Assembly: GCF_032884065.1 (NCBI RefSeq) | Contig: NC_088863.1 | Coordinates: 62,584,104 to 62,648,103 of the forward strand | Direction: 5' to 3' | Source of the DNA: Artemia franciscana | Lineage: Eukaryota; Arthropoda; Branchiopoda; Anostraca; Artemiidae | Length of the DNA stretch: 64,000 nt | Shown here: one piece after another, positions 1,720 to 64,000 of the stretch | How the letters are laid out: each line of letters begins with the position of its first letter | Numbering within the stretch: position 1 is the first letter of the stretch | Notes under the pieces: generated by a model | Database searches by the model: none | Seen by the model: only the letters and a program-made list of their open reading frames with translations | What the model was told of the DNA's origin: nothing | Position numbers and translations under genes: made by a program

Positions 1720-1742
1720 GCACTTTGTATTAACCAAGTGAC
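1720..1742. repeat. Terminal palindrome of family 1
   Basis: The sequence reads CACTT-T-GT, ATTA, ACCAAGTG: 8-base arms with one mismatch around a 4-base centre. The partner at the far end of the right arm (28249-28268) has the same design. Just outside it the two copies stop matching, so it marks the element end. Confidence 0.6.
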
Positions 1743-1949
1743 ATATAGCGATCGTAAACTCTGTCGGTCGGTCTGTCTGTCCCAGTTTTGCTAATTTAGG
1801 CACTTCAAGATAGGCTAAGATGATTACATTTGGCAGGTTTATCTGGGATCAGACCAGATTAAATTAGAAAAAGTCGTTTCCCTGATTCATTATCTTGGGG
1901 GAAGTGGGGGATGGTTAATTCGGAAAAATTAGAAAAATGAGTTAGTTTA

Positions 1950-3490
1950 ACTTACGAACGGGTGATCAGATCTTAATGAAATTTGATATTTAGAAAGATC
2001 TTGTCTCAGAACTCTTATTTTAAATTTTGACCGGATCCAGTGACACTGGGGGGAGCTGGAGGGGAAAACTAAAATTTTGGAAAACGCTTTGAATGGAAGG
2101 ATCGGGATGAAACTTGGTGACAATAATAAGCGCAAGACTTAGATAGGTGATTAACATAACCGGAACGGATCTGCTCTCTTTGGGGGAGTTGTGGAGGAAC
2201 CTAACCTGAAAAATTAGAAAAAATTAGGTATTTTTAACTTACGAAGGAGTGATCAGATCTTAATGAAATTTCATATTTAGATGGATCTTGTAACTCAGAT
2301 CTCTTGTTTTACATCCTGACTAGATCCGGTGTCATTGGGAGGAGTTGGGGGGGGGGTTGGAAATCTTAGAAAACGCTTAGAGTATAGAGATCAGGATGAT
2401 ACTTGGCGGAAAGAATAAGCACAAGTTCGAGATACGTGACTGGCATATCCAGACCGGATTCACTCTATTTGGGTAGTTGAGGGGGGGGGGGGGGGTAATT
2501 AGAAAAATTAGAAAAAATTAGGTAGTCCTATTTGTAACTTACGAACGGGTGATCAGATCTTGATGAAATTTGATTTTAAGAAAGATCTTATGCTTCAGAT
2601 CTCTTATGTTAAATCCTGACCAAATCTGTTGACTTGGGGGAGTTGAAGGGGGAAACCAGTAATCTTTGAAAACGCAAAAATTGAAGTATCTTTATCTTAC
2701 GAATGGGTGATCGGATCTTAATAAAACTTGATATATAGAAAGATTTTATGTCTCAGATGCTCCGTTTTCAAGTTGAATTGGCTCCGGGTATATACGGGGA
2801 TGGAAGGGGAAAACAAAAATCTTGGAAACCGGAAATCTTGGAAAACGCTTAGAGTGGAGAGATCGGGATGAAACTTGATGGCAAGAATAAGCACAAGCTC
2901 TAGATCCGTGATTTACATAATAGGATGATGAAAATTGGTAGGTGTGTCAGGGGCCTGCACAAATTGACATGATAACAGTTGTTTCCCCGATTCGACCATC
3001 TGGGGGGGGGGCTGGAGGGAGAAGATAAAAATGAGGTATTTTTAATTTACGAATGGGTGACTGGATCTTAGTGAGCTTTTATGTTTAGAAAGAACTAATG
3101 TCTCATAGCTCTTATTTTAAATCTCGACTACATCTGGTGACATTTGGGGAGTTGGAGGGGGAAACTGAAAATGTCGGAAAACACTTAGAGTGGAAAGATA
3201 GGGATGAAACTTGGTTGGTAGGATAAGCAAGTGTCGTAGCTACGTGATTGACGTAACTGAACTGGATCTGCTCTTTGGAAGAGTTAGGAGGGATCCAGTG
3301 GTTTGGAGGGTTCGGTGTTCCTGGACATTAAATGATAGGCGTGTCAGGAACCTGCATAAATTGACTTGATAAAGTCTTTTTCCCCCATTCGACCATTTGG
3401 GTGGCTGAAGGGAGAGCAAAAGTTGGAAAAAATGAGGTATTGTTAACTTACGATTGGGTGATAGGATCTTAATGAATTTTATATTTCGAA
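1950..3490. repeat. Degenerate tandem array, roughly 300-bp units
   Basis: The motif GATCAGATCTTAATGAAATT or a near copy occurs around 1965, 2250, 2547, 2708, 3058 and 3459. Between occurrences comes the same order of blocks: a TCTCAGA block, a GGATCCGGTGACA-like block, a G-rich run, then GGGATGAAACTTGG and AATAAGCACAAG. Spacings of 160 to 400 bases show unit deletions. The inverted counterpart lies at about 27010-28200. Confidence 0.8.
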
Positions 3491-3556
3491 ATCTTGACCG
3501 GCATTAAGCCTTTGATTTTCCTTGAAATCAATCTATTTATTCTTAGAATTTTGCTA

Positions 3557-3577
3557 GAGCTCATGCCATATGAGCTC
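3557..3577. repeat. 8-5-8 hairpin GAGCTCAT/ATGAGCTC
   Basis: A perfect inverted repeat with a 5-base loop, conserved at 10341-10361 and 26945-26965. The loops differ (GCCAT-like, ACCAT, TTGGC) while the arms stay perfect. Confidence 0.65.
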
Positions 3578-3779
3578 TTGCCTCTTGGCTTTTCCACCAA
3601 ATCATCCTATGAGCAGAAGCTTTTGAACTGATACCATCCAGATGCATGTTTTATAGCTACTAAGAAAGGATAAATGACTTTGGACGTCTTCTATGACTGG
3701 CTTAGAGATGTTTTTCTGTCTCAAGTCAAGGAACAGACCTTTCTTGTTCTTGACAGGAAAATCCCAGGAATTGTATAGG

Positions 3780-5290
3780 GTATTAAGTTGAAAATTGTCA
3801 GGGTATTTTAAGGTGGATGTTGAACTACGCAAAATGCAAATTTTACATACTACTACTATTACGACTGGTGCTACTACTGTTGCTACTCGAACTACTACTA
3901 AAACTGCTATTGCTATGACTCTCTCTACTACAAATACAACATCGATTACCACTACTAGTGCTACTGAGACAAAGAGTATTTGGTGAAAACTTCAGGGACT
4001 GATGAAGAGGATAGTGAAATATGCTAAATTGGAACACGCAATGTGGATATAGGCTAGTAAAAGGGCGTAACAGCTATATCTAAGACGCAGCTTCGAGTAA
4101 CATGTGTAAACTTTTAGTGTTGAAGGGTACAATGAACCAACCAGAAGGTACTATTTACATACTACTACTGCTACTTCTACCACTACTAAGGCTAAGGGTC
4201 TCAAATTGAAATTTTTAGGAAATATTGTAGAAAAAAGTAAATTAAATTAAAACATGCTATTTGTAGGCAGGCTGTCAAAAGGCCTTATCAACAGTATTTC
4301 GAGAACGGCTCGGGATATTAGGCTAAAACTGTCAAGGCATGTTGAGGGGCTAATTGTGGTAATAAAAATGTCTTATATACATGTTGGTACTGCAAGTAGT
4401 CATACTATTAGTAGTGCTGTTTGTACCAATAATAGTAAGGGTAATTGTATTAATGTGGAGCTTTCAGGAACTGTTGAGAGGAATATTGGGATAACTCAAA
4501 ACATATTATATACATGCAGGTTATCAACAGGACGTTTCATTAATATCACAGAAACACCTTAAAGTATTAAGTTGAACCTATTAGGGCATGAGGAGGGGAT
4601 GTTGAGCTATACCAAACAGGCACAATATGAATACTATTGCTTCTTACTATTAATACAGCTAGTGCCATCACTAATGCTACTGCTATTGCTACTCCTACTA
4701 CTTCAGCCACTGTGTCTACCTCTATTGCTAATGCTAAGGGCATTAATTAAACTTTCAGAGAACGTAAAGGGTATAGTTGAACCAAATCCAAACACACACT
4801 TTGCATAGGGGTTATCAAAGGGATGTATTAGTAACATCCCAGCAACAGCTTAGGGTATTCAGCTGAAATTCTCAGGGCCACCAATAATACCACTTTTACT
4901 GCTACTTCTATAATCCCTTCTACTGCTGCTGTTGCTACTACTATTGAACTAAATCCGAATAGCTTTAGTGAATCAAGGTTGCAAAGATATCCAGGTGGCA
5001 ATAGGGTATAAAATAAGGAACAAAGTAGAAACTATCATGAAATGTTTATGTTGCTATAAAACTAAATCAAAAGGCTTCATTTGTATGATGATTGTCAAGA
5101 ACACGTCCCATTACTGTGCATCCAAGTTTTGAAAATTGTGTAGGTACAATGTCTTAGGAAGGATATTAAATTTTAATTTTCAGGGGAACATGAGAAGGTG
5201 TAAAACTATACCAAGGAATATTTGCATGTAAGTCCAGACTCTCAAAAGGACGTGTTTTATTGAAAATTGTAAAAATACTACTGAAAAATT
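3780..5290. repeat. Composite minisatellite with embedded trinucleotide tracts
   Basis: A conserved box recurs near 4264, 4512, 4800, 5088 and 5225: a TTTGCATG-like word, then TCAAAAGGNCGT, then CAGGAACGGCT-like, then GGGTATTAAGTTGAAA, then GGGCATGTTGAGG. Most spacings are 248-288 bases. Between boxes lie tracts of ACT/GCT-type triplets (3845-3960, 4150-4185, 4640-4740, 4880-4945). ORFs here encode low-complexity Thr/Leu runs and are not taken as genes. Confidence 0.75.
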
Positions 5291-6155
5291 GTTGAAAATT
5301 TTAGGGTGTCAATCCTAATCATATTAGTTTATTCTCGTTTTGAGTTTGACTCGGTTATTTATTGTGATTCCTGTTCATTTTGGGTTTCATTTATTGAATA
5401 TTTGTAATTAATGGTAGTTTTATGCTTGGAATATTATTCGACTTTTTTTCTGCTCATTTTAGGTATGTGTAGCTTCACTTTTCTTTGAAAAACTTCTTTT
5501 GTGATTTTTTAAAAATTAGTATATATAAAACATTCAGTTTATTTTTATTTACTTTTTCTCAGTCTTCTTGAATATTGTACTAATTTGTTTTTTCGTCCTT
5601 TGAGTTTTTGAAAATTTAAAGCACTCTTTTCAAAATGTTTATACCTTTTGGATATCTTGAGGAGGAAGTTGAACTAATAAAACGACTATGCAAAGCATAA
5701 TGCTTAATACTTTAATGTTTGTGTGGATTAGATTTTAGAGGATTAGATTTTCTGTGTTCATTTTGGATAAAAGTCAGTTGGATAACAGTCAGTTTCCATG
5801 TACAAATTGATATTTTGATTCATATTTTGTTTTTCAAAAAAGAAACAAAGTAAATCAGAATATAATATAGAATACATTTTACTGTTTTAATACCGAAAAA
5901 AAAGTACTGCAGAATTAAAATAATAAGGCAAAATAACTCACTTATCGGAAGAATAAAAGAAAAATATTAAGAAAACAAGCCTAACTAAGCAAAGAAGAAA
6001 ATCAAATGATCAATTTCATGATTGGAAAATAATCCATTGCTTTGCTGAACCTTCAGTCCCATCCCCTAAGGAGAAAACAAATCAGCTATTATCATAAATT
6101 TCAATTGAAATTTTGTGAACTTTTTGAACTGTTGGAAAAACAAAATATCCATATA

Positions 6156-6230
6156 CCTTGTGACAGGGTGGCGGATAAGCGCTGTTTTCATGATCAATAA
6201 GTCAGCGGTTCAATCCTTCGTGTCGCAAGG
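6156..6230 (+). other. tRNA-like module in family 1 (copy 2)
   Basis: A 75-base copy of the tRNA-like segment, here on the plus strand because this arm is inverted. It keeps CCTTGTG...CGCAAGG acceptor pairing and a GGTTCAATCC B-box, with several substitutions in the D-arm region. Confidence 0.45.
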
Positions 6231-7493
6231 AAGTATATTTCAATTATTTTCGATCCGATTTTTTTTTTCTTCCGTTTGAGTCACTTTCGATATCTGGTTC
6301 TGTCCTGGCTCAGCACAATTTTTGTAATGTGAATTAATAAATAAAAATATTTATTTACCACATATTTTTTTTTTTTAATTTTGTGACTACATTTGGCCGA
6401 AAGTGCAAGACTTGGCTTTACCCAAAAGGCACAAGACAAGAAACATGTTTTTAATAAAAAGGTAAAAAGGCATTTTCATTTTTTAATTTTAGAAAAAATT
6501 ATGAAGAAGAATTTTTTCAAAGATAAGTAAAGTGCCATCCTAAATTTAACTACTAAAAAAATGAATTCATATAATAATCCAAATTCAAAACGACCAGACA
6601 TTATTATTAGAGAATAAAAGAAACTTGAAATGAACATAAATTAAATAAATAATCATAGCTAACAAAAAGGTCAATAGGTACTAATAAAAATGAGTAAATA
6701 AATCTTAAAACGAGTAAAATATAAATTGGATATTCAAAATGTTCAAAATGTAACTAGAATAAGTACATCAAAATGTTTAATGCAAACTATGCGTCTGAAA
6801 GTTGTCAAAAGGCGTATCTGCACTATCGCAGGAACGGCAGAGCATATGAAGTTTAATCCTTTCGGACATGTTGAGGAGGAAGTTGAACTAATAAAACGAC
6901 TATGCAAATCCTAATAACTTAGAGCTCTATGCTCTCTTAGGAGCCAAAGATTTCAGAATTTGCCTGAATAAAATAGGAAATTAGCTTAGTATTGTTTCAC
7001 CAGCCATGATGTTAGTATGTTTAGCATAAAATGGCATTTTTTTTTTGTAAAGTGTAACTAAGCTCATTTGTTTGAACAAAAAAAATAATGACATAATATC
7101 ATCTTTACGTTATATTCCCTTAGTTTCAATAGAATTCGAAAGGGGTATGATGTCATAACAATTTCTGTTAACTTTCTGTTTCCAATTCAATATGCCCTCT
7201 CTTAAGTTTCTACGACCATCCCTCCGAGACAAAGTGGTTAGAAAATAAAAAGATGAAGAAGAAACATTCATGTGGGCCAGATTATTCTTTACTAAGTACC
7301 TATTAAAATCGTTTTTACTAAATGCCCTCTATCGAGGGTGCTTAATCTACCTACCAAGGGCACTTGATTAATCAAATTGTCATACACTTTGTATGAGTGA
7401 ATTTCAAATTAGTAAATTTTGTATATATAGGATCAGCACAAACAGTAGATGTTGCTCATGCGTACGTTGTAGTAAGACCTTCAGTTTTTGGTT

Positions 7494-7940
7494 TTAGTTT
7501 CTATATGCTCCTTCCTTATGATTAGCTACTTTGAAGAGCTTGATCCAGAGCTCTCTTAAATCTGAAGAAGCCAGCCTGCCTCTCAAAGTCGGATTTTTAC
7601 GTTTAAGCTTAATGTTGATATTGCAAGGCTTGGATAAATGACAATCATTCTGCAAAAGCACACCCATTAGAATACTCCCCAACGTATTCCCGGTGAGAAG
7701 GTAAACGTAATTTTGTGTTACGTTTGAAATACTCTGCTCTAAAAGTGAAGCTGTCAGTCCACAGTAGTCATGTCGCAGGCTTACTTCAAACTTTATCCTC
7801 AAAATCAAGGAAACTTTCGAAATTGAAGCTATGACTTCAATTTCCGTTCGAATGAGCCCTTTTCTGATATTTTTTAAAACAGAGTCAATGTGATGACCCC
7901 AAGGGAAAGAAGGCCAATAGAACGCTAATTTTTGTTTCAA
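7494..7940 (-). CDS. Unrecognised 148-codon ORF inside the inverted repeat
   Basis: An open frame of 148 codons with mixed amino-acid composition and no motif I recognise. The C-terminal part (SSDLRELWIKLFKVANHKE, residues about 124-142) is also readable in the inverted partner at 16922-17110, where the upstream part is broken by stops. Differences between the copies mostly change amino acids, which argues against selection on the protein now. It could be the relic of an element-encoded protein or chance in a repeat. Confidence 0.2.
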   Translation of the reverse strand: MKQKLAFYWPSFPWGHHIDSVLKNIRKGLIRTEIEVIASISKVSLILRIKFEVSLRHDYCGLTASLLEQSISNVTQNYVYLLTGNTLGSILMGVLLQNDCHLSKPCNINIKLKRKNPTLRGRLASSDLRELWIKLFKVANHKEGAYRN

Positions 7941-8358
7941 TGAGCCCTCTCCAGATATTTTAAGATCTCATTTTTGGTGAGATCAGCTATGAAAAAGAAA
8001 ACATAATTAAACACACTTCCAGGGTGTGGCATGATCTCTCTAAGAGTCCACGCCATACTCTCCTTTTTAGTCTAAAGTACTCTTTTTTGTTTTAAAGAGA
8101 ACACAAAAAGACAGAGAACACTTTCATTTTTTGGGATGTTTTCCTCTTTTTTCTAAAATCAAGCAAATTTTTCCAGGATCTTAGCCTTTGGGGGGAAATG
8201 TTAATCCTTATGGACTTTATGCAGTCCAAACTATCTTAAAAAGATTCAAACTCATCTGCAGCAATCTGCTGCAGAGCTCGGAACTTAATCCCAATGATGA
8301 GAATATGAAAAGCGTCTATATACTAATCCAAAAAAGAATATATAATCAAGGATATTAT

Positions 8359-10308
8359 ACAAGCAAGGATAAGAATATCATAAGGCTGAGTGTCAATTTA
8401 TTTCTAACTGAATGCAATGTGGCACCATGGTTTCAGAAATCCCTGTAGCCTAGTAAAGCACGATAATCAGGTCACAGTAATGAAAAATTTTAAAATACTT
8501 TTCGACAAAAACTGTCGAGGGATAAAAATTGCCATTAGAAGTTGATACAGGAATAGTAACTATGATTTCAAATAATTTTAAAGTTTATTGTGAAAATGAA
8601 TTTTTAGAAATGTCGGAAGATAGCTTGAACCCTCAAAAATACTGTCAGATAGATGTCACTGCAAATGTCATTGGAAATTAACAGTCCCCCCCCCACCTTG
8701 AATAACAAAAAAAAGCAATGGCAACATTGATGTGCCCTCTTTTTCCTATTTTCTTAATAATTAGTGGGACAGTAAAAAACCATGAGGAACTGCTTAAGGG
8801 CTCATTTGAAAGGAAATTCCTATATATATGTGCTCTGTGTAAGTAAAAAAAACAACATATTATTGAAAATAAAATGGAACTTTTTGGTAAAAACCTGCAT
8901 CTTCATGCACAAGTTCGTGTCGTATTGGGTATGATGTCATATTTGACATCAAGGGTTTCGTAACGAAAATATTATTTGTCGAATAAAAAAAAAGGAATTA
9001 AAGAAAAAATTTGTAATTCATAACTTGGTACACTCGACGTTTTGCTGCATAACAATATACGATTTGTTGCCAAGGATATATTGTTTCTCAATTATGATGG
9101 TATATAGATAATTTTGATAAATCTTATCCTTGCTTTAAAATAATTCTGAATGATTTCAACTAAAATGAACCTTCAAAACATAAAAAAAATCCAATAAAAA
9201 GAAATAACTTATTTTCTTTGCACAGTCTTATAACAAGATAGACTCCATTTATATAGCTAATAAACCGTGTCGAAAAACATTCACTACCAGAAAATTTATT
9301 GCTCTTGGGTGTGAACGAAGATCATAGTAGGGAAATATCAAAATCACACCGAATCTAAAAAAATGGTATTTTTCTTTAATTTTTGTTGTCACTTTTTACT
9401 ATTTAATTAAGTCAAAATTTTTAGTTATTTTGGTGATCCTCTGCTTTTGATACTAAGAAGTTGTGAGTGTTTTAATGCACTCGCATTTTTACATTTTTTA
9501 AATGCATTTTTGAGTGGAAACATAGCCAGTTGTGGATGGAATCTTTTCAGTGGAATGCTTTATTATCTTCATTCTTTTAAAGACAAATATCAAATCATAA
9601 GTTATACTCTGCTTCAAATACTGCTTTCTTCAGAATTTTCACAAAAACAAAAACAAAAAACAAGTAAAAACACATCTAATTTATAGAAATTTTTGCTGCC
9701 ACTAAAAAAAAAAAAAAAAAAAAATTGACAAACAACGTTTACCAAACACACAAACAAAAATCGATCAAAAACCCCAAATTCTACGCATATAATTCTACGG
9801 TAATAATCTTTCAAAATATTGGAGCTAAGATTTTCAAGGTTTAAACGAATTAGCCCTTCTAAATTTAAAGTACTCTAAAACAGGAGATTAACTAATGACA
9901 GCATATTAATTCTAAATAATTAATAACAGCAGATTAATTCTAAATTTAAGGTACTCCAAAAGAGATTTGATCCCATCGCCATCGCTTTGTGTTCGAGAAT
10001 TTTTTCTTGAAGCATTAGGGAAACATTTAAAGCTCTAGTGTTACAAATAAGGAGGTGTAAGGGGTGGGGGGGGGTGGATCCGTTATGAACAACATATTTC
10101 TGTCCGTCTGATGTTTTAAGGTTGCTCTTTCGTTTAAAATTGTCTTTTTAATTTATTTTTCTCATTTATAATACCGTATGAATAGTTATCCTAATATGAG
10201 GGGAAGGGCTCTACCCCTAAAACTCCTACTCTATATTGAATTTTAATTTTTTCAAAGCAATATTCGGGGATGAAGGACAAATTTAGTGTATTTGCTTTTG
10301 AAAATTCA
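8359..10308. other. Spacer with no recognised gene
   Basis: AT-rich sequence with short homopolymers, including a 20-base A run at about 9705-9724 and C or G runs near 8685 and 10060. Short ORFs at 9447-9686 and 9614-9814 are low-complexity and overlap on opposite strands. I see no gene, no clear repeat partner and no element ends. Confidence 0.6.
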
Positions 10309-10530
10309 ATTCAATTTATTTAGAATTTAGAATTTTGCTAGAGCTCATACCATATGAGCTCTTGGCTCTTCCGACCTCGTCACAAGTGCCTTATGAGCTC
10401 TTAGCTCTTCTTTTTGTTCCAAAGAGACCGCAAAAAGAGATAGAACACTCTCTTTTTGTGGGATGTTTCCCCCTATTGTCTAAAATCAAGCAAATTTTCC
10501 CAGGATTTGTTGGAAATGTTCATCCTAATT
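10309..10530. repeat. Family-1-related module with hairpin
   Basis: It carries the GAGCTCAT 8-5-8 hairpin (10341-10361). It then matches the block also found at about 8060-8200 and, inverted, at 16400-16560: CTTTTTGTTCCAAAGAGA, a GGGATGTTT word, then TCTAAAATCAAGCAAATTTT. Confidence 0.7.
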
Positions 10531-11589: not shown

Positions 11590-12540
11590 TTGACGGCCCC
11601 AATAATGAAAAAGCGATATGTTGTTTTAATGCAAGGGTGAGCTCTGCAGGGTAGATCCAAGATATTCTTTAGCGGGGGGGGGGGGGGTGCATATTAGATT
11701 TTTTGGACAAACTTGTGATAAATTGAGGGCCTAATGACAATGGTTGACAAAATCCAGACATTGGCAGACCTATCTCTAAATAAAAGTGCGCAAAAAATAC
11801 TTGAAATTTTGGTGGGCTCTAGTACATCTTACTCCCCTCTCTTTTATTTATATCAGAGAGATACCATTTATTTATAGAATCCTTCTAAAATATAGAAAGA
11901 AAAGAAGAAACAAAGAGAAGAAAGAAGAAAAGGAAATAAGAAAAGAAAGAAGAAAAGAAAAGAAGAAGAGAAGAAAAAAAAAACAAAAAAAGAATCAATT
12001 ACCTATTACAAAACATTTGGCAATATTCCACCTTTACTTAATCTTCCTAAACCGGTAACAGTTGCATTATTCCAAGAAGTATATCATCACTAGATGGCAG
12101 TCAAATAGGTGAAATAGTAGGACTAAATTCAACCAGTTCCTCTAAATGCAACAGTGCAATAACATATTCATACGTAAAAAATTATATTTAGTGTGAAAAA
12201 TTTTCTTCGTCACTGTCCTTTCCACAAATGGAAACTCCTCTGTGAATGAAAATACGTCATATTCTCCCAGTCAAATCCTGATTTGAGTAAGTAAAAGGCT
12301 ACAAAAAACGAAAATTGATTTAAAAATAATAATATGGCATTGGACTAGTCTAGAAGCAGGTTGTAGATGTAGTGTACATATTCTTCACCAAAATCAACAA
12401 AACCTATTAATACCTTCCTGATAAGTCATATTTAATATTGATTTACTTGTTTTTATTTTGTTTTCGTTGTTTAGGTCAACTTATTTTCATTTGATTGGAG
12501 TATTTTTCTCTATGGGCTTCGTTATTTGAATTGGAAACGT
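11590..12540 (+). repeat. Direct repeat copy 1 (partner 28270-29363)
   Basis: Parallel reading shows the same order of words in both copies: a GATATGTTGTTTTAATGC-like start, a G-rich run, the purine-rich AAAGAAGAAA tract, a GGAAACTCCTCTGTGA block and GTTGTTTAGGTCAACTTATT. The AAG-rich tract creates a Lys-rich ORF at 11786-12058 that I do not accept as a gene. Copy 2 is interrupted at its end by the old RTE-like LINE. Confidence 0.8.
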
Positions 12541-12662
12541 TAATCACGACATCGGAGATCCTTGACTATTCTCTGAAGAAACGAATGGACCGATAATTTA
12601 TTTAGCACAATAAAAGCTCTATAAATAAAGTATAAACTAGTTTGAACCTTATAATATTACAT

Positions 12663-12948
12663 AAAAAAACTAGTTTTATTAACTGAAAGTAAGGAGTGAC
12701 ATTAAAACTTAAAACGAACAGAAATTACTCCGTATATGAAATGGGTTGTCCCCTCCGCAATCCCTCGCTCTTTACTCTAAAGCGTTTAACTGTTTTAAAA
12801 AGCAGAATTGTGGCAAAGAGTCAAACTTTAGCGTAAAGAGCGAGGGATTGCGGAGGGGACAACCCATTTCATATACGGAGTAATTTCTGTTCGTTTTAAG
12901 TTTTAATGTCGCTCCTTACTTTCAGTTAAAAAAACTAATTTTTTTTAT
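12663..12948. repeat. Long palindrome 1 of family 2
   Basis: Left arm 12663-12787 and right arm 12822-12948 are reverse complements with only a few mismatches, around a 34-base spacer. Both arms hold GGTTGTCCCCTCCGCAATCC and CCGTATATGAAATGGG or their complements. The CCGCAATCC variant is found in both arms here but not in the other family-2 copies (CCTCAACGCC). Confidence 0.9.
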
Positions 12949-13251
12949 GTAATTTCTGAACGTTTTTGAATTAATGCATGTTTGATTTTGGCTCTCCACA
13001 CATAAATTATTAAAATGAAATTTGCATATTAATTCCTTTTTTGACTAAATGGCTTTCTCTTAGTTTTGATCAGACGATTTTGAAAAATAAGGGATGGGGA
13101 AGGAGGCCTAGTTGTCATGCAATTTTTTGGTTACATAAAAGGCAACTATAAATTTTAATTTTTAACGATTTTTTTTATTAGTAAAAAATATACGTAACTT
13201 AAGAATTAACTTACGTAACAAACTTTTATATTCTTTAATTTTTATTATGTA
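12949..13251 (+). repeat. Family-2 element, part left of the inserted Helitron
   Basis: Matches 60060-60330 in order (GATTTTGGCTC..., then TAGTTTTGATC, then GGAGGCCTAGTTG, then TACGTAACTT) and, inverted, 63400-63660. It stops at the A preceding the Helitron and resumes at 14771. Confidence 0.75.
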
Positions 13252-13402
13252 CTAGCTGTTGGGGTGGCGCTTCAAGCCACCCAAACACCTAGTTGGTGGG
13301 GGCGCTTCGCCCCCCCCCCCAAGCCCCCCGCGTGCGTAAGTCGTTATGCACCATATTAGTTACGCGCCATTGTAGTTGTGTCCCTATGTCCCACCTGTGA
13401 AT

Positions 13403-13599
<197 letters not shown>

Positions 13600-13600
13600 T

Positions 13601-13795
13601 TTAACTACGTAAAACTTGCGAATATACAACATTCTTTGCTGTCCCATTGTCTCTGCATATAAATAGATTGTCAGGTTTACCGACTCTTGAACATGCAACA
13701 TATAATGGTCCATGGGAAAACAATCCGTATTCAGGTCTATACCTCATGATTCTAATGATTGCCCTTGAGCTTTGTTGATGGTGATTGCTAATCGA
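13601..13795 (-). pseudogene. RepHel helicase C-terminus, broken
   Basis: On the minus strand the reading runs LAITINKAQGQSLES, stop, GIDLNTDCF, a one-base frame change near TTTTCCC, then [20 protein letters not shown] and on to VVYSQVLRS and TAA. TINKAQGQS and YVACSRV are the conserved last helicase motifs of Helitron Pif1-like proteins. Upstream of this the coding region is replaced by minisatellite, so this copy is non-autonomous. Confidence 0.75.
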
Positions 13796-14770
13796 CCATT
13801 CCCTGTGTCGCCGTCGTCATTTATATATCCCCCTGTGCCCCCCGGCGTTCCCGTTGTAAATGTGTCCCTGTGTCCTGGTCGTCATTTATATTCCCTATGT
13901 CCCGGTCGTCATTTGTGTCCCGGTGTCCCAGTCTGTGATTTCTCTTTGAGCGTCCCGGGCGTCATTTATATTCCTTGTGTCCCGGTGTCCCGGTTGTCAT
14001 TTGTGTCCCGGTGTCCTGGTATGTATATACATTCGTTTTTGAATTGGTCTTTTTTTTAGTTTTTAGTTTTTTACCTTTTTTTAGTTTTTTTTAGTTATAC
14101 CTCATGATTCTAATGATTGCCCTCCCCCGACGTCCCCGTTGTATTTGTGTCCCTGTGTCCCGGTCGTCATTTATATTCCCTGTGTCCCGGTCGTCATTTG
14201 TATCCCGGTGTCCCGGTCTGTATGTACATTCGTTTTTGAAATGGTATATGATGAAATAATTTTTTTTATTTTTCCCCTTTTTTTCTTTTTAGTTTTTTTT
14301 TTGGTTTTTACTTTTTTTTAGTTTTGCTTTTCTCCTTTATTTTTCTTTTTTTTACTTTTTTTATTTTTTTCTTTTTTAGTTTTTTTTTAGTTTTTTAGAT
14401 TTTTTAGTTTTTTTATTAGTTTTTAGTTTTTTCTTAGTTTTTACCTTTTTTTTAGTTTTTTTAGTTTTTTTTTTACTTATGTCCTGGTCGTCATTTATAC
14501 TCCCTGTGTCCCGGTCGTCATTTGTGTCCCGGTGCTTTGTTGATGGTGATTGCTAATCGAACATTCCTTGTGTCCCGGTCCCTTTCTCTTTGAGTGTCCC
14601 GGTCGTCATTTATATTCCCTATGTGCCGGTGTCCCGGTCGTCATTTGTGTCCCGATGTCCCAGTCTGTAATTTCGTCACTCGAAAACATGACGTCAGTCG
14701 ACACACAAACATGACGTCACTCGAAAGACACACACACACACAGACAACTTATTTTTATATAGAAGATAGA

Positions 14771-15929
14771 TATGAGGGGGTTTGTACCCTCGTTAATGCC
14801 TCGTTTTTTATAATAAATCGTAAGTTTTGTCCCAATTCTTTAAGAATGACCTCTGAATTAGAAAGGCCGTAGAATAAATAGTTGAAATTACTAAAATACT
14901 ATAGCATAAAGAGCGAGGTATTTATCTCCTCCTAAATACATAGCTCTTTATGCTAAATTACTCTTAGAACCCTTCATATGCGTAATAATCTCTGTTCGTT
15001 TTAAGATTCAATGCTACTCTTTACTTTCAATTGAAAAAACTTTTCCATGTTTATTTTTTCATTGTTTTTTTATAGTAATTTTAGAAAATCCTGCGCCCTT
15101 TTCATTGAATTTCTGTTCCCCCATGACATATTTCTATAAGGAAAGATCCTCCCACATAGCCCCCTCCCCTCAACCCTACCCCCAAAACCAAAAAAAAATC
15201 CCCTGAAAACGACTGTAGACTTCCCAATAACCATTATTATATGTAAACACTGGTCGAAGTTTGTAACTTGCAGCCCCTCCCCCAGGGACTGTAGGGGAGT
15301 AAGTCATTCTCAAAGACATAGTTATTATGGTTTTTGACTATGCAGAACAAAATCGACCTCTCAAAATTTTTATCTGTTGACTTTGGAGAAAAAATGAGTG
15401 TGGGAGGGGGCCTATGTGCCCTCCAATTTTTTCGGTCACTTAAAAAGGGTACTAGAACTTTTCATTTCCGTTAGAATGAGCCTTCTTGTAATATTCTAGG
15501 ACCACTTGGTCGATACGATGACCCCTGGAAATAAAAAAAAAAACAAAAAAAACAAAAAAACAAATAAACACACACCCGTGATTTCTCTTCTGGCAAAAAA
15601 TACGAGATTCCATATTTTTGCAGATAGGCGCTTTAAAATTTTATTATAGGGTACTCTCATACGCCGAATACGATGGTGCGATTTTCGTTAAGATTCTGTG
15701 AGTTTTAGGTGGTGTTTTTTTCCTATTTTCTAAAATAAGGCAAATTTTTTCAGGCTCTTAACTTTTGATGACAAAGACTAAATTTAATGAAACTTATATA
15801 TTTAAAATCAGCATGAAAATTTCATTCTTTTGATGTATATCTTAGAATCAAAATTCCGTTTCTTAGAGTTTCGTTTACTATTGAGCCGGATCACTCCTTA
15901 CTACAGTTCGTTACCACGAACTGTTTGAT
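14771..15929 (+). repeat. Family-2 element, part right of the Helitron, with terminal palindrome
   Basis: It resumes the family-2 copy with TATGAGGGGG and a degenerate second palindrome (about 14771-15010). A body matching 60620-61457 follows: CCTGCGCCCTTTTCAT, CCACTTGGTCGATACGAT, TTTTCGTTAAGATTCT. It ends in CAGTTCGT-TACC-ACGAACTG at 15904-15923 followed by TTTGAT, after which the copies diverge. Confidence 0.8.
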
Positions 15930-16179: not shown

Positions 16180-17830
16180 CCCTGTATAATATCCTTTATT
16201 ATATATTCTTTTTTGGATTAGTATATAGACGCTTTTCATATTCTCATCATTGGGATTAAGTTCCGAGCTCTGCAGCAGATTGCTGCTGATGAGTTCGAGT
16301 TCTGGGTCCCGTATTACCAATATTACCCCTATTACCGTATTACAATATGCGTAAGCAGATTATCTTTTTACGATAGTTCGGACTGCATAAAGTCCTTAAG
16401 GATTAACACATCCCCCTAACGGCTAAGATCCTGGGAAAATTTGCTTGATTTTAGAAAAAAGGGGAATACATCCCAAAAAAAGAGTGTTCTATCTCTTTTT
16501 GTGTTCTCTTTAAAACAAAAAAAAGAGTAGTTTAGACTAAAAAGTAGAATGTGGCGTGAACTCTTAGAGAGATCATGCCACAACCTGGAAGTGTGTTTAC
16601 TTATTTTTTTTTCATGGCTGATCTCACCGAATACGTGATATTCAAATATCTGGAGGGGGCTCATTCAAACAAAAATTAACGTTCTGTTGGCCTTCTTTCC
16701 CTGGAGGTCATCACATTGAGTCTGTTTTAAAAAATATCAGAAAAGGGCTCATTCGAACGGAAACTGAAGTCATAGCTTCAATTTCGAAAGCTTCCTTGAT
16801 TATGAGGATTAAGTTTGAAGTAAGCCTGCGACATGAGTACTGTGGACTGACAGCACCACTTTTAGAGCAGAGTATTTCAAATGTAATATAAAATTACGTT
16901 TACCTTCTCACCGGGAATACGTTGGGGAGTATTCTAATGGGTGTGCTTTTCCAGAATGATTGTCATTTATCCAAGCCTTGCAATATAAACATTAAGCTTA
17001 AATATAAAAATCCGGCTTCGAGATGCAGACTGACTTCTTCAGATTTAAGAGAGCTCTGGATCAAGCTCTTCAAAGTAGCTAATCATAAGGAAAGAGCATA
17101 TGGAAACTGAAACTGAAGGTCTTACTACAACGTAAGCATGAGCAGAATCTACTGTTTATACTGATCCTATGTATGCAAAATTTACTAATTTGAAATTCAC
17201 TAATATAAAGTGTATGAAAATTTGATTAATCAACTAACCTCAGTAGTGGGATTAAGCACCCTCGATTGGGGGCATTTAGTAAAAACAATTCGAATAGGTA
17301 CTGAGTAAAGAATAACTTGGCCCACATGTATGTTTCTTCTTCCTCTTTTTATTTTCTAACCACTTTGTATAGGAGGAATGGTCGTAGAAACTTAAGAGAG
17401 GGCTTATTGAATTGGAAACGAAAAGCTAATAAAAATTGTTATGACATCATATCCATGCCAAATTCTATTGAAACTAAGGGAATAGAACGTAAGGATGATA
17501 TTAAGTCACTATTACTTTTTTTTTGTTCAAACAAATGAGCTTACTTACGCTTTACAAAAAAATTTCATTTTATAATAAGCATACTAACATCATGGCTGGT
17601 GAACCAATACTAAGTTAATTTCATGTTTTATGCAGACAAATTCTGAAATTTTTTACTCCTGAAAGAGCATAGAACTATAAGTTATTAGGATTTCTATAGT
17701 CATTTAATTAGTTCATACACTCTGCCGTTCTTGCGATAGTGCAGATACGCCTTTTGTCAACTGTCATACTCACAGTTTGCTTTAAACATTTTGATGCACT
17801 CATTCTGGATACATTTTGAACAAAGTGCTA
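16180..17830 (+). repeat. Right arm of giant inverted repeat, inner block
   Basis: The reverse complement of 6735-8358. Shared words include GGATTAGTATATAGACGCTT, CTCTGCAGCAGATTGCTGCT, AGGTCTTACTACAACGTAAG and GATAGTGCAGATACGCC. At 17830 it breaks off and continues into a different part of family 1, unlike the left arm. Confidence 0.85.
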
Positions 17831-23694: not shown

Positions 23695-24203
23695 ATTTGA
23701 ATATCCAATTTAAATTTTACTCGTTTTAAGATTTTTTTTTACTCATTTATATTAGTATCTATTGACCTTTTTGTTGGCTATGATTGTTTATTTAATTTCT
23801 GTTCATTTCATGTTTCTGTTATTCTCTAATAGTAATGTCTGGTCATTTTAAATTTGGATTATTTTATGAATTCATTTTTTTAGTAGTTAAGTTTAGTATG
23901 GCACTTTACTAATCTTTGAAAAAAATTCTTCTTCATAAATTTTTCTAAAATTATTAAATGAAAATGCCTTTTTACTGTTATTTAAAAACAAGTTTCTTGT
24001 CTTGTGCCTTTTTGGGTAAATCCAAGTCATGCACTTTCGGCCAAATGTAAAAAAAAAAATTGTGGTATATAAATATTTCTCTTTATTAATTCACATTACA
24101 AAAATTGTGTTGAGCCAAGATAGAACCAGATATAGAAAGTGACTCAAACGGAAGGAAAAAAAATTATTACGACATTTAAATAGAACTTTTTCGACTACAA
24201 CTT

Positions 24204-28268: not shown

Positions 28269-28269
28269 A

Positions 28270-43334: not shown

Positions 43335-43375
43335 TTCAAGATATTTAAGACATATGTTCACGTAGAAATCTATTA

Positions 43376-47160: not shown

Positions 47161-47661
47161 TTTTGAAACCAAATGAAGCGGTTAATTATCCATCTGAATT
47201 TTTAAATTCCATAGATCCTTCAGGGTTTCCCCACAGGTGCTATAACTAAAAATAGGCGTACCAATAATACTTTTAAGAAATATCAACCCACCAAAGCTTT
47301 GCAATGGCACGCGACTTGCCGTAAAAAAAAACAATGGAAAACCTAATAGAGGCCACAATCTTGACAGGGCCTTATGAGGGTGAGGCTGTTCTTATTCCTC
47401 GCATTCCCATGATTCCAACGGATCTGCTTTTTCAATTTAAAAGATTTGCAATTCCCAATTCGATTAGCATTTGTAACCACCATCAACAAAGCTCAAGGGC
47501 AATCACTAAAAAAATGCGGTATAGATCTTAATACAGATTGCTTTACCAATGTACAATTGTATGTTGCATCTTTGAGGATCGGTAAACCTGACAATCTATT
47601 TATACGCACAGACAATGGGACAGCGAAGACTGTTGTATATTCACAAGTTTTACGTAGTTAA
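47161..47661 (+). pseudogene. Tandem duplicate of the RepHel C-terminus
   Basis: About 500 bases repeat 46656-47154 (offset about 506), with small indels that break the frame. Readable parts are RIPMIPTDL and INKAQGQSL, then [20 protein letters not shown] and the stop. It shares the 3' coding end of RepHel but cannot be translated with it. Confidence 0.85.
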
Positions 47662-49659: not shown

Positions 49660-50215
49660 TCACTGACATGGATAAGCATTTATTTATAGAGAGAGTCATT
49701 AGGGGATGGCATGTTTTCACAGGAATTCATATCCATAAAGACTAAATTAGCTTAAAATTTTCACTATATATAAAATATTCTGGCATATGAACCAAACAAC
49801 CTTTTCATATCGTTCAGTAGAACAGGTTAACGAATTTTGATAAGTAATCATGCTTAAATGTATTAAAATGAACCTGCAAGGGAATTCTGACCTAAATCAA
49901 AATGTTTGAGTTTTTTTTATTTTTCATAGGTCAGAGATGGAACAATGCGACACTTTTACTATTTTTTGTTTGTTCAACTACAAAATAAGGAGTTACAATA
50001 AGACTAAAAACGATCAGAAGTTGGTTTTACATAAGAAGAAGCAAACCTCTACTTATTACCTCACTATTTACGCCAAGAGTTGAAACCATGACCATAGGAG
50101 TTTTTGAAATTTTTCATTGGCCAGAATTAATTTTTCCAAATGGAAATCTAACAGTATAGAAATTTACAACTATCAAATGCCTAGTTGTTTACGCTAAGAG
50201 GCAAAACTAAGCTTT
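49660..50215. other. No recognised feature
   Basis: AT-rich sequence without ORFs of note or repeats beyond short words. Confidence 0.6.
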
Positions 50216-52560
50216 AAATTATCAATTTGAAGTTCTAAATTTAAACATTTTATTTGTAATATCAGTTTCTATATTAAACTTTTAGTTTTAATTTTCATTT
50301 TTAGTAATCCAGTTTTAATACTTAATTTTATTGCTTTTATTTTAAAAGTTTAATTTTTACAAGTTTTTTTGGTTTTGAGGTTTCAGTCTTAAGGCTCTAG
50401 TCTTAAGGTTATAGTTTTAAAGTTTTGATCTAAAAATTTTGACCTTCAAAATAATAGTTTTAAAAATGTTTTTAGTTTTAAGGTTTTAATTTAACATTTT
50501 TGTTTTGGTATTTAATCTTTCCAGTTTTAAAGTTCTAGTTCTAAACTTTAATTTGAAATTTTAGTCTTGATGTTTTAGGTTTAAAGTTTTTTTGCTTTCA
50601 AAGTAATAGTATTTGAAAAAGTTTATGGTTGAAAAGTAATGTTTAGTTGTAATGTGTTATTTTTTCAGTTTTAAAGTTTTATTTGTCTTTAAGTTTTACT
50701 TTAAAATTTGTTATTTTTAATACTTTAGTTTTAAATTTCAATTTCAAACTTTTAGTTTTAATTTTTAGTTTTAGTGTTTCAGTTTTAAAGCTTTTACTTA
50801 AAATTATTAGTTTTAACGTTTTTAATTAAAAAGATCATTTTTTAAAGTTTTTTGTTTTAAAGTTAAATTTTCAAAGTTTTAGTCTTAAAGTTTTAGTTTA
50901 AAGTTTTAATTATAAAATAAAATATTTCCAAACTAATAGTTTTAAAACGGTTTTTGGTTTTAAGATTTTAATTTTAAAATTTTTTATTTAATATTTTATT
51001 TTCCCAACTTTAAAGTTTTAGTTCTAAACTTTTATTTAGAAGTTTTAGTTTTAATGTTTTAGTTTTAAACTTTTGTTTTTTCTTTCAAGGCAATAGTTTC
51101 AAATAAGTTTTGATTTTGAAACATTATTTATAAATTTTATTTTTAATGTCTGTTTTTCAGTTTTGAAGTTCTAGTTTTAAACTTATATTTTGACATTTTT
51201 AGTTCTTATTTTAAGCTTTAAAGGTTTGGTTTTAAAGTTTAAAGTTTTAAAGTTTTAAGTTTCAAGAAGTTTTTGAAATTATCAGACTTAAAGCTTAGAT
51301 TTTCTTAAAGTTTTAGTTCAACAAATCTTCAATTATTAAGTTTCTAGTTTCAAAGTTTTTAGTTTTAAACTTTAGTTCTTAAAGTTTTTAATTTAAAAGT
51401 TTTGGTTTTAATTTCAAATTTATTTTTTTAAGTTTTAGTTTTAGAAGTTTCTTTCGGCTAAAGGTTTTCTTTTTAAGACCTTAGCTTTAATGTTTTACTG
51501 TTCTAGTTCTTAATAATTATCTTTAAAGTTTGAATTTTAAAGATGTTACTTTTAAAAGTATTGGTTTTAAGGCCTCAGGCACAAAATTTTGGATTAAGAC
51601 TATCGATTTTAAGTTTAGATCTTAACTGGTGGTATTTTACAAGGTTTATCTTCAAATATTTTTCCAAAACATTCAGTGTTAATAGTTTAGGTTTTAAGAG
51701 ATTTATATTATCGGTTTTAAAGTTCTTTTCTTAATTGTAAGGCTTTTAATTTAAATTTCTTAGATTTCATCTGAAAGATATAGTTTTAAAGTTTGAGTTT
51801 TAAAAGTCTTATTTTTAAAGCGACATCATTTAAAAGTATTCGGTTTTAAGGTTTCACCTTTAAAGTTTTAGTTTTAATGTTTTTATTTTTTCTGACTTTA
51901 AAGCTTTTTTGCAAAGTTTTATTTTGAAATTTTGGTTTTGCGGTTTTAGCTCTGATATTTTTCCCGTAGTTTCATTTTTGCTTTAAATTTTTAGTTTTGA
52001 AGTTTTAATTTTAAAGTTTCAATTTTAAACTTATTTTAGAAGTTTTAGTTTTACCTTGTCAGTTTTAAAGTTTTAGTTATAAATTTCTGTTTTAAATATT
52101 AATTTTAAAATTTTAAGTTTTAAATTACCAGTTTTAAAGTTAAGGTCTGGCTTTCTTTTAATTTAAAAAGTAGTTTTAAAAGGTTTTTTATTTGTAATGT
52201 TTACGAAAGTTTTAGTGTTAAACGTTTTTCTAAAGTTTAGTTTTAAAGTTTTAGTCATAAGTTTCTTGGTTCCAAATTGTCAGATTTAAAGTTTAGATCT
52301 GATTTTTTTTTAAGTTGTAGTTATAAAAAAATTTTATTTTATAGTTTATGTTTTTAGAGATTTTAGTTTTAAAGTTTAGATCTTAACACTTATTTCAGTT
52401 TAAATGTTTTAGTTTTAAAAGTTTTTCTAAGGTCTTAACTTTAAAGTTTATATTTAAAGTCTTAGTTTTGGAAGTTTTTAGTTTTTAAGTAATAGTTTTA
52501 AGAAGTTTTTGGTTTTAAGGTTTTCATTTTAAAGTCTTAGTTTTAATGTTTTACTTTTCT
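50216..52560. repeat. 2.3-kb cryptically simple AGTTTTA-rich domain
   Basis: Almost the whole stretch is built from variants of AGTTTTAAAGTTTT with steps near 6, 8 and 14 bases. The plus strand is strongly T-rich and C-poor. Units are too diverged for a clean array. Edges are sharp, especially at about 52560 where the bias flips to A-rich. The 63-codon ORF at 51543-51734 is an artefact of the composition. Confidence 0.85.
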
Positions 52561-52754
52561 TGAATAATCCAATATAATTTTAAAAAAACAGAAACAATTC
52601 TTACAAATAAAATAAGTTCTAACAAAATTCGAAATATTTCTTACAAAACAAAAATTATTCCCATAAAATAAATAAAAAAATCCTTTACACAAGTCTAAAA
52701 TACTTCTAAAATAATAAAATTAGTTGCTGTAAATACAAAATACTTATACAAAAC

Positions 52755-59516: not shown

Positions 59517-61457
59517 ACCATCCAAAATCAAAACATGCAAAAAAAAAACATTCTGAAATTAAATTTAAAAAAAATGAGTTTTTTAAATGACAAGTAAGGA
59601 GCGAAATTAAAATTTAAAACGAACAAAAATTATTTCGTATATGAAAGAGGTTGTCCCCTCCTCAACGCCCCGCACTTTAAGCTAAAGTTTGGCTCTTCGT
59701 CGCGTCTCCACTTTTTGAAACAATAACAAAAACTTAATCGTAAAGAGTGAGAAGTTGAGGAGGGGACAGCCCCTTTCATAAACAAAACAATTCCTGCTCG
59801 TTTTAACTTTTAATGTCACTCCTTACTTGCGGTTAAAAAAACTTGTTTTTTTTATTCAATTTAGAAAGTTTTTGAGTTAATGCATGTTTTGACCACATTC
59901 TAGGACCACTTGGTCGATACGATCACTCCTGGAAAAAAAAACAACAAATAAACACGCCTCCATGACCTGTCTTCTTTCAAAAAAATACAAAATTCAATAT
60001 TTTTTTAGATAGGAGCTTAAAACTTCTACTGAAAGGTTTTCTAACACGCTCAATCTGATGGTTTGATTGATTTTGGCTCACCACGCATGAATAATTAAAC
60101 AAAATTTCCAGATGAGTTTTTTTTTTTGGCTGAATAGCCTTCTCATAGTTTTGATCGGGCGATTTTGATAAAAAAAAGGGGTGGGAGAGGAGGCCTAGTT
60201 GCGCTCCAAATTTTGATTAGTTAAAAATGCAACTAATTTTTTTACAAAAGTTTTTGTTAGTAATAAACATACGTACCTTTCGAATTAATTTGCGTAGCGA
60301 GCTTCTATGAGGTACATTTACTAATACGAACCCTCACTATACCTCACGAACCCCCTCATATACGAACATATATGAGGGGGTTTGCCCCCTCTTCAATACA
60401 TCGCTCTTTACACTAAAGCTTGAATATTGTTCCAAATCCTTAAGAATGACCCCTGAATTACAAAGACAGTTGAAATTACTAAAAATGCTTTAGCGAAAGA
60501 GTGAGGTATGGTGGAGGCGATGAACCCCCTTATATACGTAATATTTTATGTTCGTTTTAAGTTTTAATGCTGCTCATTACTTCCAGTTGAAAACAAATTA
60601 TTATTTTCTCTTGCTTTTTTTAAATAATGCTTGAAAATCCTGCGCCCCCTTCATGGAAATTCTCTTCCCTCATGATAATTTCCTCCATGGAAAGATCCTC
60701 CCACGTAAGCCCATCCCCCTGACCAACCCCAAACCCGAAGAGAAAAAGTCCCCCTGAAAACGTCTGTACACTTCATAATAACCACTATTTTAATAAACAA
60801 TGGTCAAAGTTTTCAACTTGTACCCCTTCCCCCGGGGAATGTGGGGGATTAATTCATCCGCAAAGAAATATTTATTATGTTTTCGACTATGCTGAGCAGA
60901 ATCGATATCTCAAAATTTTGATCCGGTGACTTCGGGGAAAAATGTGCGTGGTAGGGGGCTTACGTGCCCTCCAACTTTTTTGGTCACTTAAAAAGGCACT
61001 AGAAGTTATAATTTCCGTTAGAATTAGCCCTCATGAGACATTCTAGGACCACTTGGTCGATACGATCACTCCTGGGAAAAAAAAAAAAAAAAAAACAAAT
61101 AAACACGCCTCCACGATCTGTCTTCTTTCAAAAAATACAAAATTCAATATTTTTTTCAGATAGGAGCTTAAAACTTCTACTGAAAGGTTTTCTAACACGC
61201 TCAATCTGATGGTGAGATTTTCGTTAAGATTCTATGACTTTTAGGGGATGCTTTTCCTATTTTCTAAAATAAGTCAAATTTTCTCTTAGCTTTTGATGGG
61301 TAAGACTAAACTTGATGAAACTTATATATTTAAAATCAGTGTTAAAATACAATTCCTTTGATGTGACTATTGGTATCAAAATTCGGCTTTTTAAAGTTTC
61401 GGTCACTATTGAGCTTGATCGCTCCTTTCTACAGTTAGTTACCACGAACAGTTTGAT
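59517..61457 (+). repeat. Family-2 element, copy 2
   Basis: Palindrome 1 at 59517-59895 is followed by a misplaced 170-base duplicate of the distal body (59893-60063), the middle body (60064-60330), palindrome 2 (about 60340-60600) and the distal body (60600-61430). The terminal palindrome CAGTTAGT-TACC-ACGAACAG lies at 61432-61451, then TTTGAT. Same orientation as the copy at 12663-15929. No coding capacity. Confidence 0.85.
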
Positions 61458-62007
61458 GTTAGAAGCATTGCCGTTCTCTCGCGTAAATGCTGTCTATAGT
61501 GAATATCTTTGCCCGTCTAAAATAAATATTTACTTTTGAGTTACAGCTTTTTATGTACTACTATTTTTTCTTGCAAGAGGATCTAAGGCAGCTCCAGAAA
61601 ATATTCTTTTTTTAATACTAGATCCTTATAGGTGTTTTAAGATATGGCTAGTTTTCTTGCAGAAACTATTTAGGAAAATCAAATGTCTCTTGCCTTGATA
61701 CAATAATTATAAGTACATAACCGAAACTATGAATAAAACCCGTCCTTCTGATAAATAAACATGTTTAAGTTAGTTAAAAATGTGGGTAACGATCTTCTTG
61801 CTTCGGTCTTTATTTCCCACTTCCTTCTTCCTTATATAGCATGTCTTATGAAGGTGAGTGTCTAAATCAAGTTTATTAGCGGTAGAAAACCAGAGTACTA
61901 GCTTCTTATGTTAAATTAAGAGCTATAAAATAACTGGGATTGAATTCCTTTAGCATCATAAAATTTTGAAATGATTAAATGGGAACAGTTCGTAGTAGCA
62001 AGCTCTA
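61458..62007. other. 550-bp spacer between inverted family-2 copies
   Basis: AT-rich sequence with no ORF or repeat partner, except an isolated CAGTTCGTAGTAGC at about 61985 that echoes the terminal palindrome. Confidence 0.6.
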
Positions 62008-64000
62008 ATCAAACAGTTCGTGGTAACGAACTGTAGTAAGGAGCGACCCGGCTCAATTGTAACCGATACTCTAAAAAATGGAATTTTGATACCAATAGCT
62101 ACATAAAAAAAAATCGCATTTAAATGCTGGCTTTAAATGTATAAGTGTCATCAAGATTAGTCTTCGAAACACCCCTTAAAAGTCATACAATCTTAACGAG
62201 TCACACCATCAGATTCAGCGTATCAGAGAACCTTTTTGTAGAAGTTTCAAGCTCCTATCTACAAAAATGTGGAATTTCACATTTTTTGCCAGAAGACAAA
62301 TCACGGATGCGTGTTTATTTCCCAGGGGTGATCGTATCGGGCTCATTTTAACGGAAATTAAAAGTTATAGTGCCCTTTTAATTCACTGAAAAAGTTGGAG
62401 GGCAACTAGGCCCCCTCCCACGCTCATTTTTGCCCCACAGTCACCGAATAAAAATTATGAGATAGCCATTTTATTCACCATAGTCGAAAAACCTAATAAA
62501 TATGTTTTTTTGAACGACTTACTCCCTCGCAGTCCCCGTGGAAGGGGCTACAAGTTACAAGCTTTGACCAGTGCTTAAATATAGTAATAGTTACTTGGAA
62601 GTGTACATACGTTTTCAGGGGGATTTTTAGGTTGTGGGGGGTTGAGAAGAGGGGGATATGCTGGGGGAACTTTCCTTGGAGGAATTTGTCATGGGGGAAG
62701 AAAATTTTCATGAAGGGAGCGCAGGATATTCTAGCATTATTTAAAAGAATGAAAAAATAAATATGAGAAAGGTTTTTTCAACTGAGAGTAAGGAGAAGCA
62801 TTACAACTTAAAACGAATAGCAATTATTGCGCATATGCTTGGCTTACCTCCTCCTAATACTCCGCTCTTTACGCTAAAGTATTTTTAGTAATTTAGTTTT
62901 TAGTAATGGGAGGGGCTGCAACTTACAAACTTTGACCTGTGTCTACATATAGTAATGGTTAATGGGAAGTGTAAATACGTTTTCATGGGGATATTTTTGG
63001 TTTGGGAGGGGAGTTGAGGGGGTCACTTGGGTGGATATTTCCATGGAGGAACTTGTCATGGGGGAAGAGACTTTCAATAAAGAGGGCGCAGGATTTTCTA
63101 GCATTATTAAAAAAAACAATGAAAAATAAATATGAATAGTTTTTTTCTACTGAAAGTGAGGAGCAGCATAAAACTTAAAACGAGCAGAAATTATGACGCA
63201 TATGAGGGGTAATTATTACGCATATGAGAGGTAATACCTCGCTCTTTACGCTAAAGTATGTTAAGTGATTTCAACTATTTATTCTACGGCCTTTGTGATC
63301 CAGGGGTCATTTTTAAGGAATTGGGACAAAATTTAAGCTTTAGTGTAAAGAGTGAGGCATCGACGAGGGGTGAACCCCCTCAAATACGTAATAAAAACAA
63401 ACGAATATAGAAGTTCGTTACGTAAGTTACGTATATTTTTTTCTAGTGAAAACGTTCGTAAAAAACTAAAAGTTCTAGTTGCCTTTTTAAGTAATCAGAA
63501 AATTGGGGGACAACTAGGCTTCTTCCCTCGCTCCTTTTTTCTCAATATCTTCTGATTAAAACTATGAGAAAACCATTTAGTAAAAAAAAAATTAATATAC
63601 AAATTTAGTTTTAATTATTTTTGCGCGTAGAGGCAAGATCAAAACATGTATAAATTCAAAAACGTCCAGAAATTAAATGAAAAACAAGTTTGTTTTTTTA
63701 AATGAAAGTAAGGAGCGACATTAAAACTAAATTAAATTAAATTAAACTTACATTAAAAAAGTGAAATTAAAACTTAGAATGAACAGAAATTACTCTGTAT
63801 ATGAAAGGGTCTTTTCCTCCTCAACGCCTCGCTCTTTACAATAAAAGTTTGACTCTTGCTCTTAACTTTACTTTTTAAAACAGTAAAAAACTTTAGCGTA
63901 AAGAGTGGGGGGTTGAGGAGGAAAAGACCCTTTCATATAAGGAGTAATTTCTGTTCATTTTAAGTTTTGATGTCGCTTTTTTTAATGTAAGTCTAATTTA
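62008..64000 (-). repeat. Family-2 element, copy 3, running off the window
   Basis: Starts ATCAAA then CAGTTCGT-GGTA-ACGAACTG (62014-62033) and proceeds through the reverse of the family-2 body, a palindrome 2 region that is partly duplicated (about 62540-62900 and 62912-63260), and the middle body (63400-63660). It ends in a long palindrome from about 63632 that continues past the window. In both of its arms the palindrome reads GGGTCTTTTCCTCCTCAAC. Confidence 0.85.

Follow-up and report, generated by a model that had tools for sequence, protein, structure and literature searches.

Two palindrome-ended repeat families in Artemia franciscana resemble Helentron/HINE-type (DINE-1-like) elements, a group of non-autonomous rolling-circle transposons

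We analyzed a 64,000-nucleotide stretch of the Artemia franciscana genome (assembly GCF_032884065.1, NC_088863.1:62,584,104–62,648,103, forward strand), referred to as the window and numbered from its first base. The window carries several copies of two repeat families, each with an edge at a short palindrome built of two 8-nucleotide arms around a 4-nucleotide loop (8-4-8). For family 1, BLAST self-matches were used to establish colinearity. Copy A (plus strand) begins at 1719 and is colinear with other family 1 sequence up to 8361, though its far end is not proven. Copy B (23696–28263, minus strand) is colinear with A 1719–6738, and a separate piece D (16183–17822, minus strand) is colinear with A 6740–8361; in our reading, piece D is the continuation of copy B past a stretch holding a retrotransposon without long terminal repeats (non-LTR). 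Copy C (1–1721, minus strand) represents only an internal part of the family, matching A 4862–6677, and stops at the copy A palindrome. Family 2 comprises copy c1 (12656–15929, plus strand), which is split by a Helitron-like insert at 13252–14770, copy c2 (59522–61457, plus strand) and copy c3 (62008–64000, minus strand), which runs off the window.

A preliminary description of this sequence proposed that both families end in 8-4-8 palindromes, and we compared the occurrence of each pattern with its expectation and with 100 shuffled sequences. This description proved accurate for family 2. Its pattern, CAGTTCGT-N4-ACGAACTG, occurs without mismatches at 15904 and, on the minus strand, at 62014, and with two mismatches at 61432, so that the palindrome is perfect in two of three copies. 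Three matches compare with 0.15 expected, and at least three were found in none of the 100 shuffles. As had been described, all three copies continue with TTTGAT and diverge beyond it (palindrome plus TTTGAT at 15904–15929 and 61432–61457 on the plus strand and 62008–62033 on the minus strand).

The family 1 palindromes are less regular than had been proposed. The copy A palindrome (1721–1740, CACTTTGTATTAACCAAGTG) contains one mismatch and that of copy B (28242–28261, minus strand, CAATTGTTTAATACCAAGTG) contains two; the latter lies 7 bp from the 28249–28268 originally given. The perfect sequence was present in neither copy and is better regarded as a putative ancestral form. Copy B is on the minus strand, so its palindrome corresponds to the same element end as that of copy A. 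The pattern has two matches against 0.20 expected, a number reached in 1 of 100 shuffles. Outward of the palindrome, copies A and B have only GG in common, giving a terminal unit of GG plus CACTTTGT-ATTA-ACCAAGTG in copy A (1719–1740, plus strand) – read here as a subterminal inverted repeat (subTIR) and its complementary inverted repeat – and a degenerate counterpart with GG in copy B (28242–28263, minus strand).

We also examined 8-4-8 palindromes in general, using 20 Markov simulations as background. Perfect palindromes with at least three G/C per arm number six in the window, two of them from family 2, against a simulated mean of 0.25. With one mismatch allowed there are 26, where the simulations average 14.6 and reach 20 at most, a modest excess. 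Loops of 0–3 and 5–8 nucleotides yield 20 perfect palindromes in total, a count that includes overlapping ones and has no simulated background. A joint pattern covering both families, searched with up to two mismatches, matches eight times where 1.14 matches are expected, a number reached in 0 of 100 shuffles; the eight fall at five sites, of which three match on both strands. These counts, together with the positions at which copies diverge, make it unlikely that the palindromes are there by chance and support the view that they mark one end of each family.

Copy C also bears on the family 1 border. Related internal sequence in copies A and B carries on where copy C breaks off, making copy C a one-sided empty site that places the 5′ border of copy A at or beside its GG. 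We observed a third repeat (~28264–29362 and 11603–12513) that begins at the outer edge of the copy B palindrome and may represent the sequence into which copy B inserted. A paralogous empty site for family 1 was thus recovered only by half, with the 5′ border of A visible in copy C and the outer side of B in the repeat near 11603. A search of the window for sequence continuing beyond the far ends of the family 1 copies found none.

The anatomy inside the family 1 palindrome is that of a described class of element. A GTCK/GTCY microsatellite lies 22 bp inside the palindrome in both copy A (1763–1782, plus strand) and copy B (28192–28219, minus strand); GTCN tracts of at least three units occur at three places in the window, and two of the three are these. 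Copy A then continues into tandem repeats (1923–3500, plus strand), which the program TRF reports with a 289-bp period at 1923–2675 and which are more loosely spaced thereafter. Six copies of a 72-nucleotide marker were counted in this array, and two were counted in copy B by the same ungapped rule; copy B also has BLAST self-matches. A Pfam scan covered ten translated frames of the window, and the three that represent family 1 pieces had no match above cut-off (best E 0.051).

Excerpts from PMC2374699 describe DINE-1 elements as having a partial inverted repeat by the 5′ subTIR, a GTCY microsatellite, a variable center of tandem repeats (units of ~50–500 bp) and no significant open reading frame. 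Similarly, the left flank of oyster (Crassostrea gigas) Cg_HINE is described in excerpts from PMC7492417 as a subTIR, a complementary inverted repeat 1–12 bp away and, in several elements, GTCY/GTCC/GTCK microsatellites; these elements also include a satellite-like array and, on the right flank, a subTIR and a palindrome. In mite HINEs the 5′ subTIR lies ~2–4 nucleotides from the terminus (PMC4067079). Family 1 has the complementary inverted repeat at the 5′ subTIR, the GTCY-type microsatellite and the central tandem repeats, and no gene was found in its scanned pieces, in line with Drosophila DINE-1/INE-1. We consider it most likely that family 1 is a HINE/DINE-1-type element – that is, a non-autonomous Helentron – with the palindrome at its left end.

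The terminal region of family 2 has a different arrangement, reading inside to outside as a 13-mer, one nucleotide and the hairpin. The 13-mer AGTAAGGAGCGAC, a candidate 3′ subTIR, lies on the inner side of the c1 hairpin, one base away from it (15890–15902, minus strand, two mismatches), and recurs in c2 (61418–61430, minus strand, two mismatches) and c3 (62035–62047, plus strand, exact). Within two mismatches it has nine matches in the window (three exact) against 0.75 expected, and nine were reached in 0 of 100 shuffles. The folds predicted for c1 and c3 each have a hairpin stem of 9 bp, and the TTTGAT that follows opens with a run of T. Inverted partners of the 13-mer lie within a foldback at the left side of the element in c1 (12688–12700, plus strand, 12 of 13 letters alike), where the partner is a candidate 5′ subTIR, and in c2 (59593–59605, plus strand, 11 of 13). 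This order resembles the right flank of DINE-1, for which the excerpted text of PMC2374699 gives a 13-bp subTIR and a hairpin with a 7–11-nucleotide stem a few nucleotides downstream of the 3′ subTIR. We therefore lean, by a small degree, toward the family 2 palindrome being the end of a similar HINE/DINE-1-like element.

Taken together, the palindromes probably belong to the ends of Helentron/HINE-type (DINE-1-like) rolling-circle transposons that are non-coding and non-autonomous, and the two families appear to extend a kind of element already described, not to form a new class. Our confidence in this joint assignment is slightly lowered by the spacing and orientation of the family 2 end, discussed below.

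The family 1 palindrome would then be a 5′ subTIR adjoining its complement, with the GTCY/GTCK microsatellite and then the central tandem repeats farther in. The family 2 palindrome would most likely be a 3′ hairpin directly after a 13-bp 3′ subterminal repeat, possibly the signal at which rolling-circle replication stops. The Rep/helicase, with an endonuclease, would come from an autonomous Helentron at another place in the genome; this enzyme would nick at the element ends and peel off one strand, which would be inserted into T-rich DNA without target duplication. The preliminary description had suggested an enzyme that may read a hairpin or a recombinase-like site, and among the options it offered an HUH-type Rep appears the most likely. 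The tyrosine recombinase that it also offered had no match in the ten frames scanned, a minority of those in the window. No target duplication or matching terminal inverted repeats were seen, with only one end of each family defined.

Several observations weigh against this assignment. For family 1, an inverted partner of the 5′ repeat (CACTTGGT) that could serve as the 3′ subTIR was not found with up to two mismatches near the far end, which itself rests on one pair of copies and may not be the true 3′ end. The family is 6.6 kb long where colinear. The undetected 3′ subTIR and the length are differences from DINE-1/INE-1; in a further difference, from Cg_HINE, both family 1 copies run several kilobases past the array, and no right flank was recognized in the family. 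TRF reports an array in copy A and none in copy B. Published HINEs have TT at each end (PMC4067079); the family 1 junctions are T-rich (GAATTTC, GCTTTTTAT) but have no TT at the border, with one side visible per insertion. As for the enzyme, the Rep/helicase-type frames at 43856–47151 had no endonuclease match, and no Helentron-type enzyme was identified among the frames scanned. The window also has canonical-looking Helitron ends.

The remaining points concern family 2, and several of them favor the strongest alternative, in which only family 1 would be a HINE. Family 2 would then be a foldback or DDE-type non-autonomous element of unrelated origin, and the similarity of the palindromes would be coincidental. 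If TTTGAT is the terminus, as the three copies suggest, the hairpin lies 6 bp and the 13-mer 27 bp from it. In mite HINEs the hairpin is 8–35 bp and the 3′ subTIR 38–60 bp from the 3′ terminus (excerpts of PMC4067079), so the closer spacing in family 2 counts against a HINE right flank and in favor of the alternative. No GTCY tract was found in the three family 2 copies, with c3 cut by the window end. The left side is occupied by a foldback of 298–365 bp (12656–12953 in c1, arms 89–90% alike; 59528–59892 in c2, arms 70–74% alike; 63738–64000 in c3, far arm cut by the window end), which, like the repeated copies of the 13-mer, suits a foldback element and is unlike the short inverted repeat of DINE-1. 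This foldback extends beyond the 13-mer partner by 32 bp in c1 and 65 bp in c2; in c3, which runs off the window, no inverted 13-mer was found at the left. Moreover, one of the nine 13-mer matches (12764) is part of another foldback motif, and the c2 hairpin is broken in the predicted fold. Set against this alternative are the order of 13-mer, single nucleotide, hairpin and short tail, which fits the DINE-1 right flank as excerpted above, and the lack of a target duplication or matching inverted end for family 2, of which one end is defined. The likeness to DINE-1/INE-1 is one of anatomy, not a letter-by-letter comparison. Weighing both sides, we regard an unrelated origin of family 2 as unlikely, and continue to favor HINE-type ends for both families.

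The relationship between the families bears on the same question. Their palindrome arms are alike at six of eight letters; two random arms would agree at six or more positions with a chance of 0.004, a figure to be read knowing that the pattern was chosen after the fact. Across all 20 bases, the palindromes agree at 14 when each is taken from its outer end inwards, and at 12 when one of them is turned round. This better agreement as the same end, which comes from the loop letters, is weak evidence against the family 2 end being a right flank. Local alignment with family 1 sequence 1719–3500 as the only query detected no similarity beyond the palindrome frame: the best scores were 28.3 bits for c2, 24.7 for c1 and 23.8 for c3, and 60 shuffles of c2 scored up to 30.1 (median 24.7). 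Kinship of the two families is therefore unproven, and the common hairpin frame may reflect convergence, a shared enzyme or chance. In one version of a shared enzyme, a single Helentron-type enzyme would read the same hairpin frame in both families, and in certain lineages a single-stranded intermediate folding on itself would have rebuilt the ~300-bp family 2 foldback; we consider this combination improbable.

The preliminary description had gone further, suggesting for both families an unrecognised superfamily whose enzyme may read a shared CANTTNGT hairpin. The equal arm length, equal loop length and six of eight common arm letters in two otherwise unlike families are what such a superfamily would predict, as is the divergence of copies at the palindrome or 6 bp after it. 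Nevertheless, the proposal is unnecessary, since the anatomy of the family 1 left end is the one published for DINE-1/HINE left flanks and the family 2 end resembles the right flank of that class. In addition, terminal palindromes or hairpins have been described for Helitron2 and Helentron elements (excerpts of PMC5148889 and PMC4067079). We consider a new superfamily very improbable. Among the described elements, Helitron2, as represented by Fusarium FoHeli, shares terminal hairpins and asymmetrically placed inverted repeats with the Artemia families in the excerpted accounts; it differs in that no Rep-helicase gene was found in either family, and the FoHeli termini given there (TCAG...ATTTT and TGCCT...CTCCTGT) are not theirs. 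Finally, canonical Helitrons (Helitron1) occur in the window in recognizable form, for example as the insert in c1, but we rejected this class for the two families as highly improbable on account of the one end defined for each – no shared CTRR follows the hairpin in any of the three copies of family 2, and the first letters of family 1 are GG instead of TC.

If HINE-type ends are the correct reading for both families, they add to the known HINE-type families, one of them with a satellite-like array, and hairpin-ended repeats that seem to belong to no class could be sorted by anatomy – palindrome, GTCY tract and array. Should the shared hairpin frame be a real recognition site, it would help match such elements to the enzyme that moves them. 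We make no claim that the repeats themselves are new to science. A literature search with sequence words from the repeats returned no paper, and a search for further copies in viral and prokaryotic contig collections found none, a result with little bearing on an animal repeat.

Some features of the foldback suggest how family 2 has changed. The c1 arms match each other at 131 of 148 positions, compared with 70–80% to the arms of other copies. The c3 arms have a private insertion in common, yet their identity to each other, 105 of 131 positions (80%), does not exceed that of one arm to c1 (113 of 142; 80%). The c2 arms match each other at 105 of 149 positions, no better than they match c1. This pattern suggests homogenisation of the arms or renewed folding in c1 and, judging from its insertion, in c3; c2 shows neither. 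In c2, a ~170-bp stretch beside the foldback (59895–60068) repeats a downstream part of the same copy (61038–61219) with 92% identity, as if by template switching. Outside the element, a 12-mer at 61986–61997, which starts 28 bp from where the c3 palindrome begins, resembles half of the family 2 hairpin (CAGTTCGTAGTA, one mismatch); it may be left over from another copy, mark a preferred target or be due to chance.

Within family 1, a second palindrome, AGAGCTCAT-N5-ATGAGCTCT, follows the copy A array (3556–3578, plus strand), and this palindrome and its variants occur at 3556–3578, 10340–10362 and 26945–26965. The occurrence at 10340 is part of a short piece (10305–10506) that joins sequence like copy A 3522–3586 to sequence like 8084–8179. 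The stretch between these two segments may be a later insert in copies A and B.

The window includes other mobile elements. The insert in c1 (13252–14770, minus strand) has the appearance of a canonical Helitron, with a 5′ TC, a 3′ hairpin, CTAG and an A/T border, and the uninterrupted c3 serves as an approximate empty site for it. A broken Helitron gene region lies at 43349–47154 (plus strand), with Helitron_like_N and Pif1 2B domains in the frames at 43856–47151. It contains a repeat with a 69-bp period at 43454–43915, and part of the region is repeated near 47469–47620. Pfam matches also identified non-LTR retrotransposon frames, with RVT_1 at 18292–20139 and RVT_1 plus endonuclease domains at 32159–34855. 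Rfam at its gathering threshold had no match in the window, and ARAGORN reported no gene there. Finally, ~2.4 kb of AT-rich sequence at 50200–52600 consists of degenerate repeats, many with a 14-bp period.

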